This document shows positions 15,003 to 35,932 of a stretch of 64,000 nt of DNA, one piece after another. Position 1 is the first letter of the stretch. Every line of letters begins with the position of its first letter. The notes below the pieces were generated by a model that saw only the letters and a program-made list of their open reading frames with translations, ran no database searches and was not told where the DNA came from. Position numbers and translations under genes: made by a program. The DNA is from Oceanibaculum nanhaiense (GTDB lineage: Bacteria; Pseudomonadota; Alphaproteobacteria; Oceanibaculales; Oceanibaculaceae), in contig NZ_MPOB01000009.1 in assembly GCF_002148795.1 (NCBI RefSeq), positions 1 through 64,000 of the forward strand, read 5' to 3'.

Positions 15003-17390
15003 ATGAGCGACGACGCCTTGGAACAGGCGCGGCGCGAGGACGGCGCGAGAAAAGACGGAACAGGCTCGGCAGGCATGACGCATTTCTGGCGTCATCTCGG
15101 GCACTGGGCGGAGCGCGTGCGGCTTGGCCGCAAGGTGGCGCTGCTGTTGATCGTCGCCGCCCTGGTGTCGGGCGTGGTGACCTATGCCGCGCTGACGGAT
15201 TCCGGACCGGTCGGTCCCGATCCGAACACCATCTTCGTGCTGATGAATGTCAATCTGCTGCTGTTGCTGCTGGTTGGCATGGTGGTGTCCTACCGGCTCG
15301 TGCAGCTCTGGCTGGAACGGCGGCGTGGCCTCGCCGGTTCCAAGCTGCATCTGAAGCTGGTGACGCTGTTCGCCCTGGTTGCTGTGATTCCGGCGATCAT
15401 CGTCGCGGTGTTTTCCGCCCTGTTCCTGAATTTCGGCGTTCAGTCCTGGTTCGACGAGCGGGTGCGCACGGCAGTCAACGAATCGCGCGAGGTGGCGAAG
15501 GCCTATCTGGCGGAGCATCAGAAGACGATCCGTGCCGACGTGCTGGCGATGGCTGCGGATCTGAACCGCGAGGCGCTGAATCTGTCCGCCAATCCCCGGC
15601 GTCTCACTGCTTTCATCAGCGCGCAGGCGCAAGTGCGGGCGCTGGCCGAGGCGGTGGTGTTCGACAGCACCGGCTATATCCTGGCGCAATCGGCGCTCAG
15701 TTTCGCGATGCATTTCGAGACCGTGCCGGAAGCCTCGCTGCGTGAGGCGGAAACCGGCGTTGTCGTGCTGATGGAGAATGATGCCGACGACCGGGTGCGC
15801 GCTCTGGTCCGGCTCGACGGGTTCGCCGATGCCTACCTCTATGTCGGGCGGTTCGTTGACAGCAAGGTTCTGGCCCATATGGACCAGACAGAGGCGGCGG
15901 TCGAGGAATATCAGCGCCTGCAGGGCCGGCAATCCAGCCTGCAGATCACCTTCGTGATGATTTTTGTCGTGGTGGCGCTGCTCATGCTGCTGGCTGCCGT
16001 CTGGGTTGGGCTGAACGTGGCGGCGGAGCTGTGGCGGCCGGTGCGCAACCTGATCGGCGCGGCGGAACGGGTGCGCGCCGGCGACCTGACCGCCCGGGTG
16101 GCGGACGAAGACAGTACCGACGAGCTGGGCGTGCTCAGCCGGGCCTTCAACCGGATGACAAGCCAGCTTGAGGAGCAGCGGCAGGAGCTGATCGACGCCA
16201 ACCGGCAGCTCGATACGCGCCGCCGCTTTACCGAGACGGTGCTGGCCGGTGTTTCGGCCGGCGTCATCGGCCTCGATGCAGAGGGACGGATCAACCTGCC
16301 CAACCGATCCGCCTCTTTGCTGCTGGATCAGCCGCTGGAACGGGCAATTGGCCTGCCGATTGGCGATGTTGTGCCGGAGATGGCGGAATTGCTGGCCGTG
16401 GCGCAGGCGCGCCCGGACCGCGATCAGGAACGCGAGGTCATCCTGCAGGGCGAGGCGGGGCAACGCACGCTGTTGGTGCGGATCACGGCGGAGCGTGGCG
16501 ACAGCAATGCCGAGCAGGAGCGCGCGCTGGGCTTCATCCTTACCTTCGACGATATCACCCAATTGATGACGGCACAGCGCAAGGCCGCCTGGGCCGATGT
16601 GGCGCGCCGCATCGCGCACGAAATCAAGAATCCCCTTACCCCGATCCAGCTTTCCGCCGAGCGGCTGAAGCGCAAATATCTGGGTGAAATCGTCTCCGAC
16701 AAGGAAAGCTTCGTCGCCTGCACCGAGACGATCATCCGTCATGTCGGGGATATCGGCCGCATGGTCGATGAATTCTCCGCCTTCGCGCGGATGCCGGCTC
16801 CGGTGCTGCGCAACGAAGCTCTCGACGCGCTGTGCCGCGAGACCCTGATGCTGTATCGCAGTGCCCACCAGGATATCCGCTTTGTGGCCTCCCTGCCGGA
16901 CGAGCCGGCTACCGTATGGTGCGACCATCGCCAGGTCCGGCAGGCGCTGACCAATCTGGTGCAGAACGCCATCGAATCGATTGAGGCAAGGCGGGAAACC
17001 GATCTCCGGCCCGGTATTGTCCGGCTGGCAGTGCTGCACAGGCAGGGCCAGGTTGAGCTGCATGTCGAGGACAATGGCAAGGGATTGCCCAAGGATGTCC
17101 GGCATCGCCTGACCGAACCCTATGTGACGACGCGCGAGAAGGGCACGGGGTTGGGGCTCGCCATCGTCAAGAAGATCATGGAGGATCATGGTGGCGACCT
17201 GGTGATCGAGGATCGCCGGCGCAGCGGTGCACGTGTCCGGTTGATTTTCCCGGGGCGGGATGTAATCTCCGGCCACAATGGTAAATCCAGCACCGAGGCA
17301 GAGACTGCCCGTTCGCCCGATTCCGGCCAGGGTTCAGGCCCAGGCTCTGGCGACGACACCCCTGAGTTAGCGGTTATTCATGGCGCATGA
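15003..17390 (+). CDS. ntrY: Membrane sensor histidine kinase NtrY
   Basis: Membrane-bound kinase of the NtrYX system, linked in alphaproteobacteria to nitrogen use, redox and envelope control. The 795-residue protein has three N-terminal membrane segments (about 43-62, 78-98, 118-143), a periplasmic sensor region, a fourth segment (about 315-340), HAMP, PAS, then HisKA with AHEIKNPLTPIQLSAERL and HATPase with NLVQNAIESI, DNGKGLPK and KGTGLGLAIVKKI. The C-terminal 40 residues are Ser/Gly-rich. It overlaps ntrX by 11 bases and follows ntrC by 50. Confidence 0.95.
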   Translation: MSDDALEQARREDGARKDGTGSAGMTHFWRHLGHWAERVRLGRKVALLLIVAALVSGVVTYAALTDSGPVGPDPNTIFVLMNVNLLLLLLVGMVVSYRLVQLWLERRRGLAGSKLHLKLVTLFALVAVIPAIIVAVFSALFLNFGVQSWFDERVRTAVNESREVAKAYLAEHQKTIRADVLAMAADLNREALNLSANPRRLTAFISAQAQVRALAEAVVFDSTGYILAQSALSFAMHFETVPEASLREAETGVVVLMENDADDRVRALVRLDGFADAYLYVGRFVDSKVLAHMDQTEAAVEEYQRLQGRQSSLQITFVMIFVVVALLMLLAAVWVGLNVAAELWRPVRNLIGAAERVRAGDLTARVADEDSTDELGVLSRAFNRMTSQLEEQRQELIDANRQLDTRRRFTETVLAGVSAGVIGLDAEGRINLPNRSASLLLDQPLERAIGLPIGDVVPEMAELLAVAQARPDRDQEREVILQGEAGQRTLLVRITAERGDSNAEQERALGFILTFDDITQLMTAQRKAAWADVARRIAHEIKNPLTPIQLSAERLKRKYLGEIVSDKESFVACTETIIRHVGDIGRMVDEFSAFARMPAPVLRNEALDALCRETLMLYRSAHQDIRFVASLPDEPATVWCDHRQVRQALTNLVQNAIESIEARRETDLRPGIVRLAVLHRQGQVELHVEDNGKGLPKDVRHRLTEPYVTTREKGTGLGLAIVKKIMEDHGGDLVIEDRRRSGARVRLIFPGRDVISGHNGKSSTEAETARSPDSGQGSGPGSGDDTPELAVIHGA

Positions 17391-27429: not shown

Positions 27430-27753
27430 ATGATCATCGATCACCGCACCTACGACATCAAGCCGGGTTGCCTGCCGAAATTCCTGCAGCTTTACGGCAC
27501 CGAAGGCTTTCCGGTTCAGCTGAAGCATCTGGACCAGCCCTATGGCTATTTCACCGTCACCGACATCGGGCCGCTGAACCAGGTCATCCATATGTGGAAG
27601 TACGAGTCGTTGGCCGACCGTGAGGCGAAGCGGGGCGCGCTGCAGGCCGATCCGGCCTGGCAGGCCTATCTCGCCAAGAGTGCCGAAGCCGGCTATGTCG
27701 CGCGGCAGGAGAACAAGATCCTGAAGGCGGCGCCGTTCTTTGAGCTGAAATAA
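27430..27753 (+). CDS. NIPSNAP-family protein
   Basis: A 107-residue dimeric alpha/beta-barrel (ferredoxin-like) NIPSNAP domain protein. The start MIIDHRTYDIKPGCLPKFL and the MWKYESLADREAKRGALQADPAWQAYL segment are characteristic. Bacterial members have no firmly established activity; several sit beside acyl-CoA ligases and degradation genes, as here. The ATG at 27430 follows AAAGGA. It lies 61 bases after the acyl-CoA synthetase and is likely cotranscribed. Confidence 0.88.
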   Translation: MIIDHRTYDIKPGCLPKFLQLYGTEGFPVQLKHLDQPYGYFTVTDIGPLNQVIHMWKYESLADREAKRGALQADPAWQAYLAKSAEAGYVARQENKILKAAPFFELK

Positions 27754-27779: not shown

Positions 27780-27812
27780 GTTCATGTTTTGTTCTTGACG
27801 AAAGAACGGAAC
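27780..27812 (+). promoter_or_regulatory. LexA (SOS) box and promoter
   Basis: GTTC at 27780-27783 and GTTC at 27791-27794 are separated by exactly seven bases (ATGTTTT), a perfect match to the alphaproteobacterial LexA consensus GTTC-N7-GTTC. A TTGACG -35-like hexamer follows immediately (27795-27800). No good -10 is seen at 17 bases spacing. A perfect dyad GTTCTT-N5-AAGAAC (27791-27807) and another GAAC (27809-27812) make the site denser. It lies 65 bases before the start of a 42-codon gene. Confidence 0.72.
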
Positions 27813-27858
27813 ATGCGGCACTCTTCCCGCCAGAACCTATCTGGTGAGGGAGAGTGTC

Positions 27859-27987
27859 ATGTCGGAACAGACTCTGAATGCGATGGACCGGGTGCTCAGC
27901 AGTGTTGCCGTTTTCGGCAGCTTCGCATTGCTGATGGTGGTCATGACCTATGGCTGGCTCACCGCTTTCCGCGTGATGGCCAGCTGA
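27859..27987 (+). CDS. Small single-pass membrane protein, probably SOS-induced
   Basis: A 42-residue open frame, ATG to TGA. A short polar N-terminus (MSEQTLNAMDRVLSS) is followed by one uninterrupted hydrophobic segment (about 12-33, including VAVFGSFALLMVVMTYGWL) and a short basic end. The ribosome binding site GAGGGAG lies at 27844-27850. The upstream LexA box suggests induction by DNA damage. Size, topology and regulation resemble SidA of Caulobacter, a 29-residue SOS-induced inner-membrane division inhibitor, but I see no clear sequence similarity, so a shared function is inference. It ends seven bases from the convergent gene's stop. Confidence 0.68.
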   Translation: MSEQTLNAMDRVLSSVAVFGSFALLMVVMTYGWLTAFRVMAS

Positions 27988-27994
27988 CACTTCT

Positions 27995-28576
27995 TCAATG
28001 CAGGTTGGGCGAGGCCGGGTGGATGAAGGGCAGGATGTTGCCCGCGTCCGCCCGTCCTGACCCGGCGCGCGCCATCCCTATGATGTCAGCGCCCTTCGGT
28101 GGCAGGTGAATGCCGGCGCGCAGCAGGCAGTCGGCCAGCAGCAGGGCAGGAAGCTCGAACAGGCGGATGGCGGCCGGTTTCAGGATGCTGCCGGCCAGGC
28201 GGCCAAAGGAATCTTCCCGGTCGGCCTGGCGCCTGTCGCGGCGGCGCTGCTGGCACAGTGAGACGAGATCAAGCAGGCATGTCTCATCCTCTGTGACCTC
28301 GGGACAGCGCGGGCAGTTCACCGCGATCTGCCGGCAGGAGCCACCGGCCAGGATGCTCATCATGCCTTCCAGCGGGTCGATGGCGTCCAGCGCATAGGCA
28401 AGCGCAAACCCTTCCATCAGGATCTCGCGGGTTTGTGCGGGTGGCCAGCCCTGGCGCAGGGCGGCAACCCAGACGCGAATGCCCCAGAGGGTCAGTTTCC
28501 GGCCATTATCGAGCGCGGCGAAGGAATCTTCGCCGTCCGGCGGGTTGTTCCGGTGATTGTCACAGCCGCTATACAT
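27995..28576 (-). CDS. Uncharacterised protein, paralogue of its upstream neighbour
   Basis: Function unknown. From the ATG at 28576 the product has 193 residues; a longer start at 28621 is possible. The core from about residue 27 (LTLWGIRVWVAALRQG) through VTEDETCLLDLVSLCQ to LLLADCLLRAGIHLP aligns colinearly with the protein encoded just upstream, showing tandem duplication. A CPRCPEV motif could bind metal; the paralogue keeps only one of these cysteines. No membrane segment or signal peptide. The start overlaps the upstream gene's stop by eight bases, so the two are translated together. Confidence 0.65.
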   Translation of the reverse strand: MYSGCDNHRNNPPDGEDSFAALDNGRKLTLWGIRVWVAALRQGWPPAQTREILMEGFALAYALDAIDPLEGMMSILAGGSCRQIAVNCPRCPEVTEDETCLLDLVSLCQQRRRDRRQADREDSFGRLAGSILKPAAIRLFELPALLLADCLLRAGIHLPPKGADIIGMARAGSGRADAGNILPFIHPASPNLH

Positions 28577-29099
28577 GGCAGGCTTGCCGGCTGAGCGGGA
28601 AATGCAGGCCGGCCTCGGCAAGCTCTGCTGCGAGATCGTGGCCCAGCCGTGCCGTCACAGCGGCGGCGGCAGGGCGCAGAAAAGACCGGCAGAGCAGGGC
28701 AGGGGCGAACTGCTCGCCCGCCTGACTGTAGCGCAGCAGATCGAGCAGCCGGGCCTCGTCGTCGCTGACCGGCCGGCTGCAGGCTGGCCATAAGCGGATC
28801 GGCCGGATCGCGCCATGCGCCAGCGACAGCATGAACAGTTCCAGCCGGCGCAGCGCCTGGGGCTGGTGCAGCCGGCGGAACGCCCCTTCCAGCGCATGGT
28901 CCACCGGCTGTCCACGCCGGCCATCGACCCAGAGCCGCATCGCCCAAAGGGCGAATTGTTCCGCGAAGGGAAGATCGAGACGGTCGCGCTGGCAATCGCG
29001 GATATCGACCGGCGCCAGGGACCGTTCGCGCGCATTGGGCCCGGTCGGGGCGGTAGCTGTCGCGGCGGCTGCGGTCTGTTCCGGTTCCACGCCTGTCAT
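28569..29099 (-). CDS. Uncharacterised protein behind a Fur-like box
   Basis: Function unknown. The 176-residue, mainly helical product begins MTGVEPEQTAAAAT with a low-complexity N-terminus. The conserved core starts at FALWAMRLWVDGRRG and ends AAELAEAGLHFP, colinear with the downstream paralogue; shared features are LW-x-x-R-x-WV, a central Cys, V-x-x-DE-x-x-LLDL and the closing AGLHFP/AGIHLP. A site resembling a Fur box lies about 26 bases before the start codon, suggesting iron-dependent expression of the pair. It is divergent from nothing on the other side; 29100-29284 holds only this control region and a terminator. Confidence 0.68.
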   Translation of the reverse strand: MTGVEPEQTAAAATATAPTGPNARERSLAPVDIRDCQRDRLDLPFAEQFALWAMRLWVDGRRGQPVDHALEGAFRRLHQPQALRRLELFMLSLAHGAIRPIRLWPACSRPVSDDEARLLDLLRYSQAGEQFAPALLCRSFLRPAAAAVTARLGHDLAAELAEAGLHFPLSRQACHV

Positions 29100-35025: not shown

Positions 35026-35826
35026 TTATCTGAGGTCCGAATGATCGGTCTCCGGCTGCCAGTGCAGGATGCGCCGGCTGGCCAGGTCGATCGTGAAATA
35101 GAGGGTGATGGCCATCGCCGCCAGCACCAGCAGCGCGGCGAACATCAGGTCGATCTGCAGCCGGGCATTGGCGTGCAGCATCAGGTAACCGAGGCCGGCG
35201 CTGGACCCCACCCATTCGCCGACGACCGCGCCGATCGGGGCGACGGCGGCGGCGATGCGCAACCCGGCGGCAAGGCCGGGCAGGGCGGCCGGCACGCGCA
35301 CCCGCCAGATCAGCCGCCAGCCATGGCAGCCCAGCGTGCGGGCGCTGTCGATCCAGGCCCGGTCGGTGCGGCGCAAGCCATCATGGAAGGCGGCGGTTAC
35401 CGGGAAAAAGATGATGAGGGCCGCCATCGCCACCTTGGAGGCCAGGCCATAGCCCAGCCACAGCACCAGAATCGGCGCCAGCGCGAAGACCGGGATCGCC
35501 TGGCTGACCACCAGCACCGGCATCAGCCAGCGCCGGACCTCGCCGGACAGTGCCATAACCAGCGCCGTGGAGACGCCCAGCGACACGCCCAGCAGCAGCC
35601 CGACGACGATTTCCGTCAGGGTTACGCCAGCATGGGGCAGGATGATGTTGCCGCGCTGTATCAGGGCGTCATAGACATCGGCCGGGCCGGGCAGCAGGAA
35701 GGATTCGATGCCGGTCAGCGACACCAGCGCCTGCCAGGCCAGCAGCAGGCCGGCCAGCGTCACGGCGGGGCGGAACAGCATCCAGCCCAGGGCGCGCATA
35801 TATCGGAAAAAGAGTGTGCCGTGCAT
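35026..35826 (-). CDS. thiX: Thiamine-precursor ABC transporter permease ThiX
   Basis: Membrane permease of a BPD-type ABC importer, 266 residues, about six membrane segments. The cytoplasmic EAA-like loop is ARTLGCHGWRLIWRVRVPAALPGL around residue 165. The ATG at 35826 lies just after the 3' end of a TPP riboswitch, so its ribosome binding site (GGGAAGAGG) is probably sequestered when thiamine pyrophosphate is abundant. It is followed closely by thiY. An ABC ATPase must be supplied from elsewhere. Confidence 0.9.
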   Translation of the reverse strand: MHGTLFFRYMRALGWMLFRPAVTLAGLLLAWQALVSLTGIESFLLPGPADVYDALIQRGNIILPHAGVTLTEIVVGLLLGVSLGVSTALVMALSGEVRRWLMPVLVVSQAIPVFALAPILVLWLGYGLASKVAMAALIIFFPVTAAFHDGLRRTDRAWIDSARTLGCHGWRLIWRVRVPAALPGLAAGLRIAAAVAPIGAVVGEWVGSSAGLGYLMLHANARLQIDLMFAALLVLAAMAITLYFTIDLASRRILHWQPETDHSDLR

Positions 35827-35829
35827 GTC

Positions 35830-35932
35830 CTCTTCCCTACGCCCGTGCTAACGGGATCAGGTTCTTGGGGTCGTCGCATCCCCGCGTGGGAGGCGACCTC
35901 TCAGCCTTATGGCTCCCCCGAGGTCGGCGCGA
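35830..35932 (-). ncRNA. TPP riboswitch (THI element)
   Basis: Read on the minus strand, the element contains GGGGGAGCC, the conserved GGCTGAGAGG of the pyrimidine-sensing arm, and ACCTGATCCCGTTAG followed by GCACGGGCGTAGGGAA of the pyrophosphate-sensing arm. These match the thi-box consensus closely. It ends about four to six bases from the thiX start codon, indicating control of translation initiation of thiXY by thiamine pyrophosphate. Confidence 0.93.

Follow-up and report, generated by a model that had tools for sequence, protein, structure and literature searches.

The 64 000 nt of Oceanibaculum nanhaiense DNA analysed here (contig NZ_MPOB01000009.1, positions 1 to 64 000), referred to below as the window, contain a putative SOS promoter standing directly ahead of a very short open reading frame (ORF). 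The LexA operator (SOS box), GTTCATGTTTTGTTC, lies at positions 27780–27794 of the plus strand, matches GTTC-N7-GTTC exactly and is kept in homologues. It is spelled GTTC-ATGTTTT-GTTC, i.e. it is of the type with an AT-rich spacer and a TGTTC end, and GTTC-N7-GTTC is the LexA operator consensus of Caulobacter (PMC9578287). A −35 element, TTGACG (27795–27800, plus strand), abuts the box, as the first-pass annotation had stated, and a TTGAC-type hexamer occupies the same position in nearly all homologues. The probable −10 element, CACTCT (27819–27824, plus strand), is a weak match with an 18-nt spacer that the consensus promoter scanner did not call in the window. It was placed by comparison with relatives, where TATCTT, TATTGT, CATAAA or CATCGT is found at a spacing of 16–18 nt. 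The operator thus adjoins the promoter, as in members of the LexA/SOS regulon, and LexA bound there would directly block RNA polymerase. The ribosome binding site, GAGGGAGAG (27846–27854, plus strand), is purine-rich, as is the sequence at the same place in most homologues. The ATG is 79 nt from the start of the box and the predicted 5′ UTR is about 30 nt. Folding of the mRNA is ordinary (z −1.3) and lends no support to a structured leader or terminator, and a consensus promoter scan of the opposite strand gave no promoter-like site for an antisense RNA. Extra inverted GAAC repeats on the 3′ side of the box (27804–27814) were considered as a second operator and dropped, as they are absent from two relatives, G001 and G002.

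Upstream of the box, on the same (plus) strand, is a NIPSNAP-family gene (27430–27753), itself preceded by a gene for an AMP-binding enzyme. Downstream, two adjacent genes for hypothetical proteins (27995–28579 and 28569–29099, minus strand) converge on the short ORF. Their products share about 31 % identity (E 6e-9) and match no Pfam model, and the pair, which is an old tandem duplication, has stayed beside the short ORF throughout the genus (four of four genomes). Elsewhere in the window there is a TPP riboswitch (Rfam RF00059, 61.1 bits) at 35816–35929 on the minus strand.

The ORF, MSEQTLNAMDRVLSSVAVFGSFALLMVVMTYGWLTAFRVMAS (27859–27987 on the plus strand, stop codon included), is predicted to encode a 42-aa single-helix membrane protein, a reading based on homologues, purifying selection and helix prediction. 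The most hydrophobic stretch, residues 12–30 (VLSSVAVFGSFALLMVVMT, encoded by 27892–27948, plus strand), has a mean Kyte-Doolittle value of 2.21 and contains no charged residue, and AlphaFold2 predicts one helix spanning residues 3–41 (mean pLDDT 91.7). The earlier description of a 42-codon frame with a ribosome binding site and a membrane segment is therefore accurate, and hydropathy and structure prediction agree on one membrane helix in a tiny protein, as is the case for SidA. Its membrane topology is ambiguous by charges. A core, S-x-x-A-x-x-G-[ST]-F-x-[FL]-[FL]...YGW, is common to members of families f1 and f155. The small residues (S14, A17, G20 and S21) fall on one face of the helix, where they would fit helix-helix packing, and the aromatic end (YGW) is conserved in the helix. 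Nothing in the sequence points specifically to FtsW or FtsN. No model in Pfam, NCBIfam, PHROGs or PADLOC matches the protein, and it is in this sense only that the suggestion that it had been missed by annotation holds. Searches of viral contigs found no relative, hence there is no sign of a phage origin, and literature searches found no description of the protein.

The bare operator motif is not in itself informative. GTTC-N7-GTTC occurs twice in the window against 1.1 expected, which is chance level, and the other copy, at 15438, lies inside a coding frame resembling that of a histidine kinase. The significance of the box therefore depends on the conservation of box and ORF together. Genome-wide, there are 64 perfect motifs compared with 27 for the reversed control, and boxes with an AT-rich spacer and a TGTTC end stand mostly ahead of DNA-repair genes. 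Boxes of this type were found ahead of uvrA/ssb, imuA, a Y-family polymerase gene and a PA0069-type radical SAM gene, as well as an AlkZ-like DNA glycosylase gene, a DUF2924/serine-recombinase unit and a GFA-like gene. Where no family search was made, these names reflect a reading of the translations. Each of the four genomes of the genus has lexA and recA, and upstream of both genes are paired boxes with one mismatch in the left half; the right half is intact, reading TTTTGTTC or TTTGTTC in most copies.

Three of the boxed genes are noted separately. The perfect box at L024 (G000:C3, 241163–241177, minus strand) is followed by the gene for the AlkZ-like glycosylase (PF06224, E 2.7e-70), which suggests SOS control of crosslink/alkylation repair in Oceanibaculum. 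At L026 (G000:C6:325330-325344), a perfect box precedes the DUF2924 gene and a serine-recombinase-like gene; this is probably an integrated element, and its activity could be controlled by the SOS response. The perfect box at L028 (G000:C11:48444-48458) is located just before the start of the GFA-like (cysteine-rich) gene, which is followed by a membrane gene of exopolysaccharide-synthesis type and would be an unusual SOS target, if real.

When 59 relatives were searched with the single sequence, matches were confined to the genus, and a profile was consequently needed to find distant homologues. The ORF is present in four of four genomes of the genus, with the other three copies 100, 83 and 71 % identical to that in the window. 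The 42 residues are identical in G000 and G003, which differ by 9 synonymous and no nonsynonymous codon changes; set against G001 and G002, the two gave dN values of 0.10–0.18 and dS values of 0.84–0.99. These figures indicate that the ORF is under purifying selection in all four Oceanibaculum-group genomes. Among the same four genomes, the 22 nt made up of box and −35 element are 91–100 % identical, compared with 16–60 % for the 25 nt on the 5′ side of the box and 31–83 % for the 35 nt on the 3′ side of box and −35.

A profile built from three sequences recovered two further ORFs from 385 genomes of the class, both from family f155 (E 1e-14 and 2e-10) and both with perfect boxes, one letter-identical (GTTCATGTTTTGTTCTTGA) and the other double. 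Searching the order to which f155 belongs (61 genomes) yielded 21 ORFs, all in f155 and distributed over four genera: 4 of 4 genomes in g251, 8 of 9 in g213 (the ninth genome is 77 % complete), 1 of 1 in g295 and 8 of 8 in g297, with 0 of 1 in g296. Each of the 21 is preceded by a perfect box, and this confirms the g297 ORFs, whose profile scores are weaker. In g213, the start region is covered by a second box, located about 45 nt beyond the first. A 14-sequence profile added one more ORF, MLKLIENPTRLNELCSTVAVVGSTGFFLFVIGLGMAQTLRSLI, from genus g215 (E 3.6e-5). In that genus, 29 of 29 matches from 29 genomes have a perfect box 73–74 nt before the ATG, and pooled codon differences from the first sequence comprise 413 synonymous and 116 nonsynonymous. 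The g215 group is linked to the others more weakly, through this E value and a common promoter layout.

Altogether, a perfect LexA box was found upstream of 54 of 54 homologous ORFs (54 genomes, including that of the window). At the genome-wide rate, a perfect box is expected in approximately 0.2 % of 130-nt stretches. As a control, none of 23 chance-level profile matches had a box upstream; these weak matches (E>0.001, L073–L095) were dropped as chance, and L071 (E 0.048) was left aside. The distance from box to start ranges from 70 to 129 nt in the homologues, and the layout is the same, namely box, abutting −35 (TTGAC or close to it), 16–18 nt, −10, leader, ribosome binding site and ATG. 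The protein is strongly conserved within genera and approximately 26–50 % identical between them. No conserved neighbourhood was seen across the genera, where the neighbouring genes differ, and promoter and ORF thus appear to be the conserved unit, travelling together. On the sequence comparisons, box and ORF define a family that extends over at least three family-level groups. As the first-pass annotation had made lack of conservation of frame or box in relatives one of the points on which its proposal would fall, the 54 perfect boxes lend strong support to a LexA-controlled small membrane protein. The retention of switch and mini-protein in several alphaproteobacterial genera argues that the DNA-damage response genuinely includes this protein, probably in an important role.

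Several small proteins that act when DNA is damaged can be compared with the 42-aa protein. TisB of Escherichia coli is a LexA-controlled membrane peptide of 29 aa, with an amphipathic charged helix and a long regulated leader. DinQ, also from E. coli, is given in its report as a LexA-controlled single transmembrane (TM) peptide (PMC3567139). Both are short membrane peptides, like the 42-aa protein, but they belong to a different bacterial class and have a different LexA box, and the charged helix and long leader of TisB are absent here. SidA of Caulobacter crescentus, an inner-membrane division inhibitor of 29 aa, is under LexA control and acts on FtsW (PMC4211646). It shares with the 42-aa protein an alphaproteobacterial-type LexA box, a tiny size, a single TM segment and the bacterial class, but differs in length (29 versus 42 aa), and the 42-aa protein is known from sequence alone. 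A second Caulobacter division inhibitor, DidA (71 aa, single TM), is SOS-independent and acts on FtsN (PMC4211646). It too is small, single-TM, alphaproteobacterial and linked to DNA damage; however, it is longer, and the 42-aa ORF has a LexA box. YneA of Bacillus subtilis, SosA of Staphylococcus aureus and ChiZ of Mycobacterium tuberculosis are SOS-induced bitopic membrane proteins (PMC13396833, PMC6851548). These are likewise small proteins with a single TM segment, but each of them also carries either an extracellular domain or an extended region (LysM in YneA and ChiZ), whereas the 42-aa protein is essentially helix only. YneA binds TM7 of FtsW via its own TM helix, and low-confidence models place SosA, ChiZ and SidA on FtsW (PMC13396833). 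Judged by its box and its conservation, the 42-aa ORF belongs to an undescribed LexA-regulated family of single-helix membrane proteins, which may be independent of SidA. It appears to be a new protein family within a known kind of SOS effector, inferred so far from genome sequences.

The small SOS-induced membrane proteins SidA, YneA, SosA and ChiZ block late division (PMC4211646, PMC13396833), and for this reason the likeliest function, by analogy, is to block the late divisome as SidA does. We put at about 0.6 the probability that the locus is a LexA-repressed single-gene SOS unit whose peptide helix blocks the late divisome, at FtsW or FtsN, until repair is complete. In undamaged cells, LexA would sit on the box abutting the −35 element and shut the promoter. 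On damage, RecA filaments would trigger self-cleavage of LexA, and a short transcript bearing a strong ribosome binding site would be made. The peptide of about 42 residues would insert in the inner membrane as one helix and pack against a TM helix of a late-divisome protein, FtsW or FtsN, and constriction would then pause until the DNA had been repaired.

The conserved small-residue face and the YGW end suggest a helix partner, and many short single-TM proteins bind a larger membrane protein. The product could accordingly be an SOS-induced regulatory peptide with a membrane partner outside the divisome, such as a protease, a transporter, a histidine kinase or a respiratory complex. We consider this unlikely, as no conserved neighbour gene indicates such a partner and division is the target of those SOS-induced small membrane proteins that have been studied best (PMC13396833). 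The small size and single predicted helix would also fit an SOS-induced peptide that, like TisB or DinQ, which are both LexA-controlled, depolarizes the membrane, slowing metabolism and promoting persistence. However, a predicted 5′ UTR of about 30 nt, with the unremarkable folding reported above, is too short to hold a long regulated leader, and the hydrophobic core is uncharged, unlike the amphipathic helix of TisB. A TisB-like type I toxin would have a long structured leader and a helix that is both amphipathic and charged; neither is seen here, making a depolarizing toxin a rather improbable reading. Finally, the box could be a chance match and the ORF constitutive or untranslated, given that a window of this size should hold roughly one bare motif by chance. 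With a perfect box ahead of all 54 homologues, where approximately 0.002 are expected per 130-nt stretch, and with the frame under purifying selection, conservation has practically refuted this explanation. How alphaproteobacteria outside Caulobacter halt division upon DNA damage is largely unknown, since SOS division effectors are easily missed because of their size and fast divergence. The family described here offers a choice of genera for testing a division checkpoint, together with conserved residues and natural variants.

Other small ORFs are found behind promoters of the same type. The pattern GTTCNNNNTTTGTTCTTGNC has 53 matches across the 385 genomes searched in the class, compared with 3 for the reversed pattern, and the genes that follow include recA, radical-SAM genes and small membrane ORFs without clear homology. 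Two of the latter, L113 (MRNVYGYVADTVCFGGLISLVLFWAVVLPSSGQI) and L114 (MTPKMIEPILETLSLTGLMGVFVFWLGVAQSGAPF), stand behind perfect LexA boxes, and a third, L173 (MISQINPIHLGWVLLRILWEVGVLSSIGAPILIWLL), follows a double box that was recovered by a looser pattern. These three ORFs are from other alphaproteobacterial families, have 34–36 residues and good ribosome binding sites, and encode membrane proteins by hydropathy. Further 34–35-aa ORFs of the L113/L114 type were sought in the order of genome G119, for which four genomes were covered. A LexA-driven mini membrane protein may thus be a common design in Alphaproteobacteria, and screening for mini-ORFs that follow conserved TGTTCTTGAC-type LexA promoters is a usable method for finding such proteins. 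It is also conceivable, though doubtful, that the 42-aa protein, its versions in other families, the L113 and L114 ORFs (34–35 residues) and Caulobacter SidA are remnants of one old, fast-evolving SOS divisome brake, whose promoter, box included, has been better conserved than the protein. In four genomes of f38 (G040, G167, G264 and G340), several near-identical TGTTCTTGAC-type LexA boxes are present in each (up to 8), some near contig ends, and these may mark a repeat family or a mobile element with an SOS promoter.
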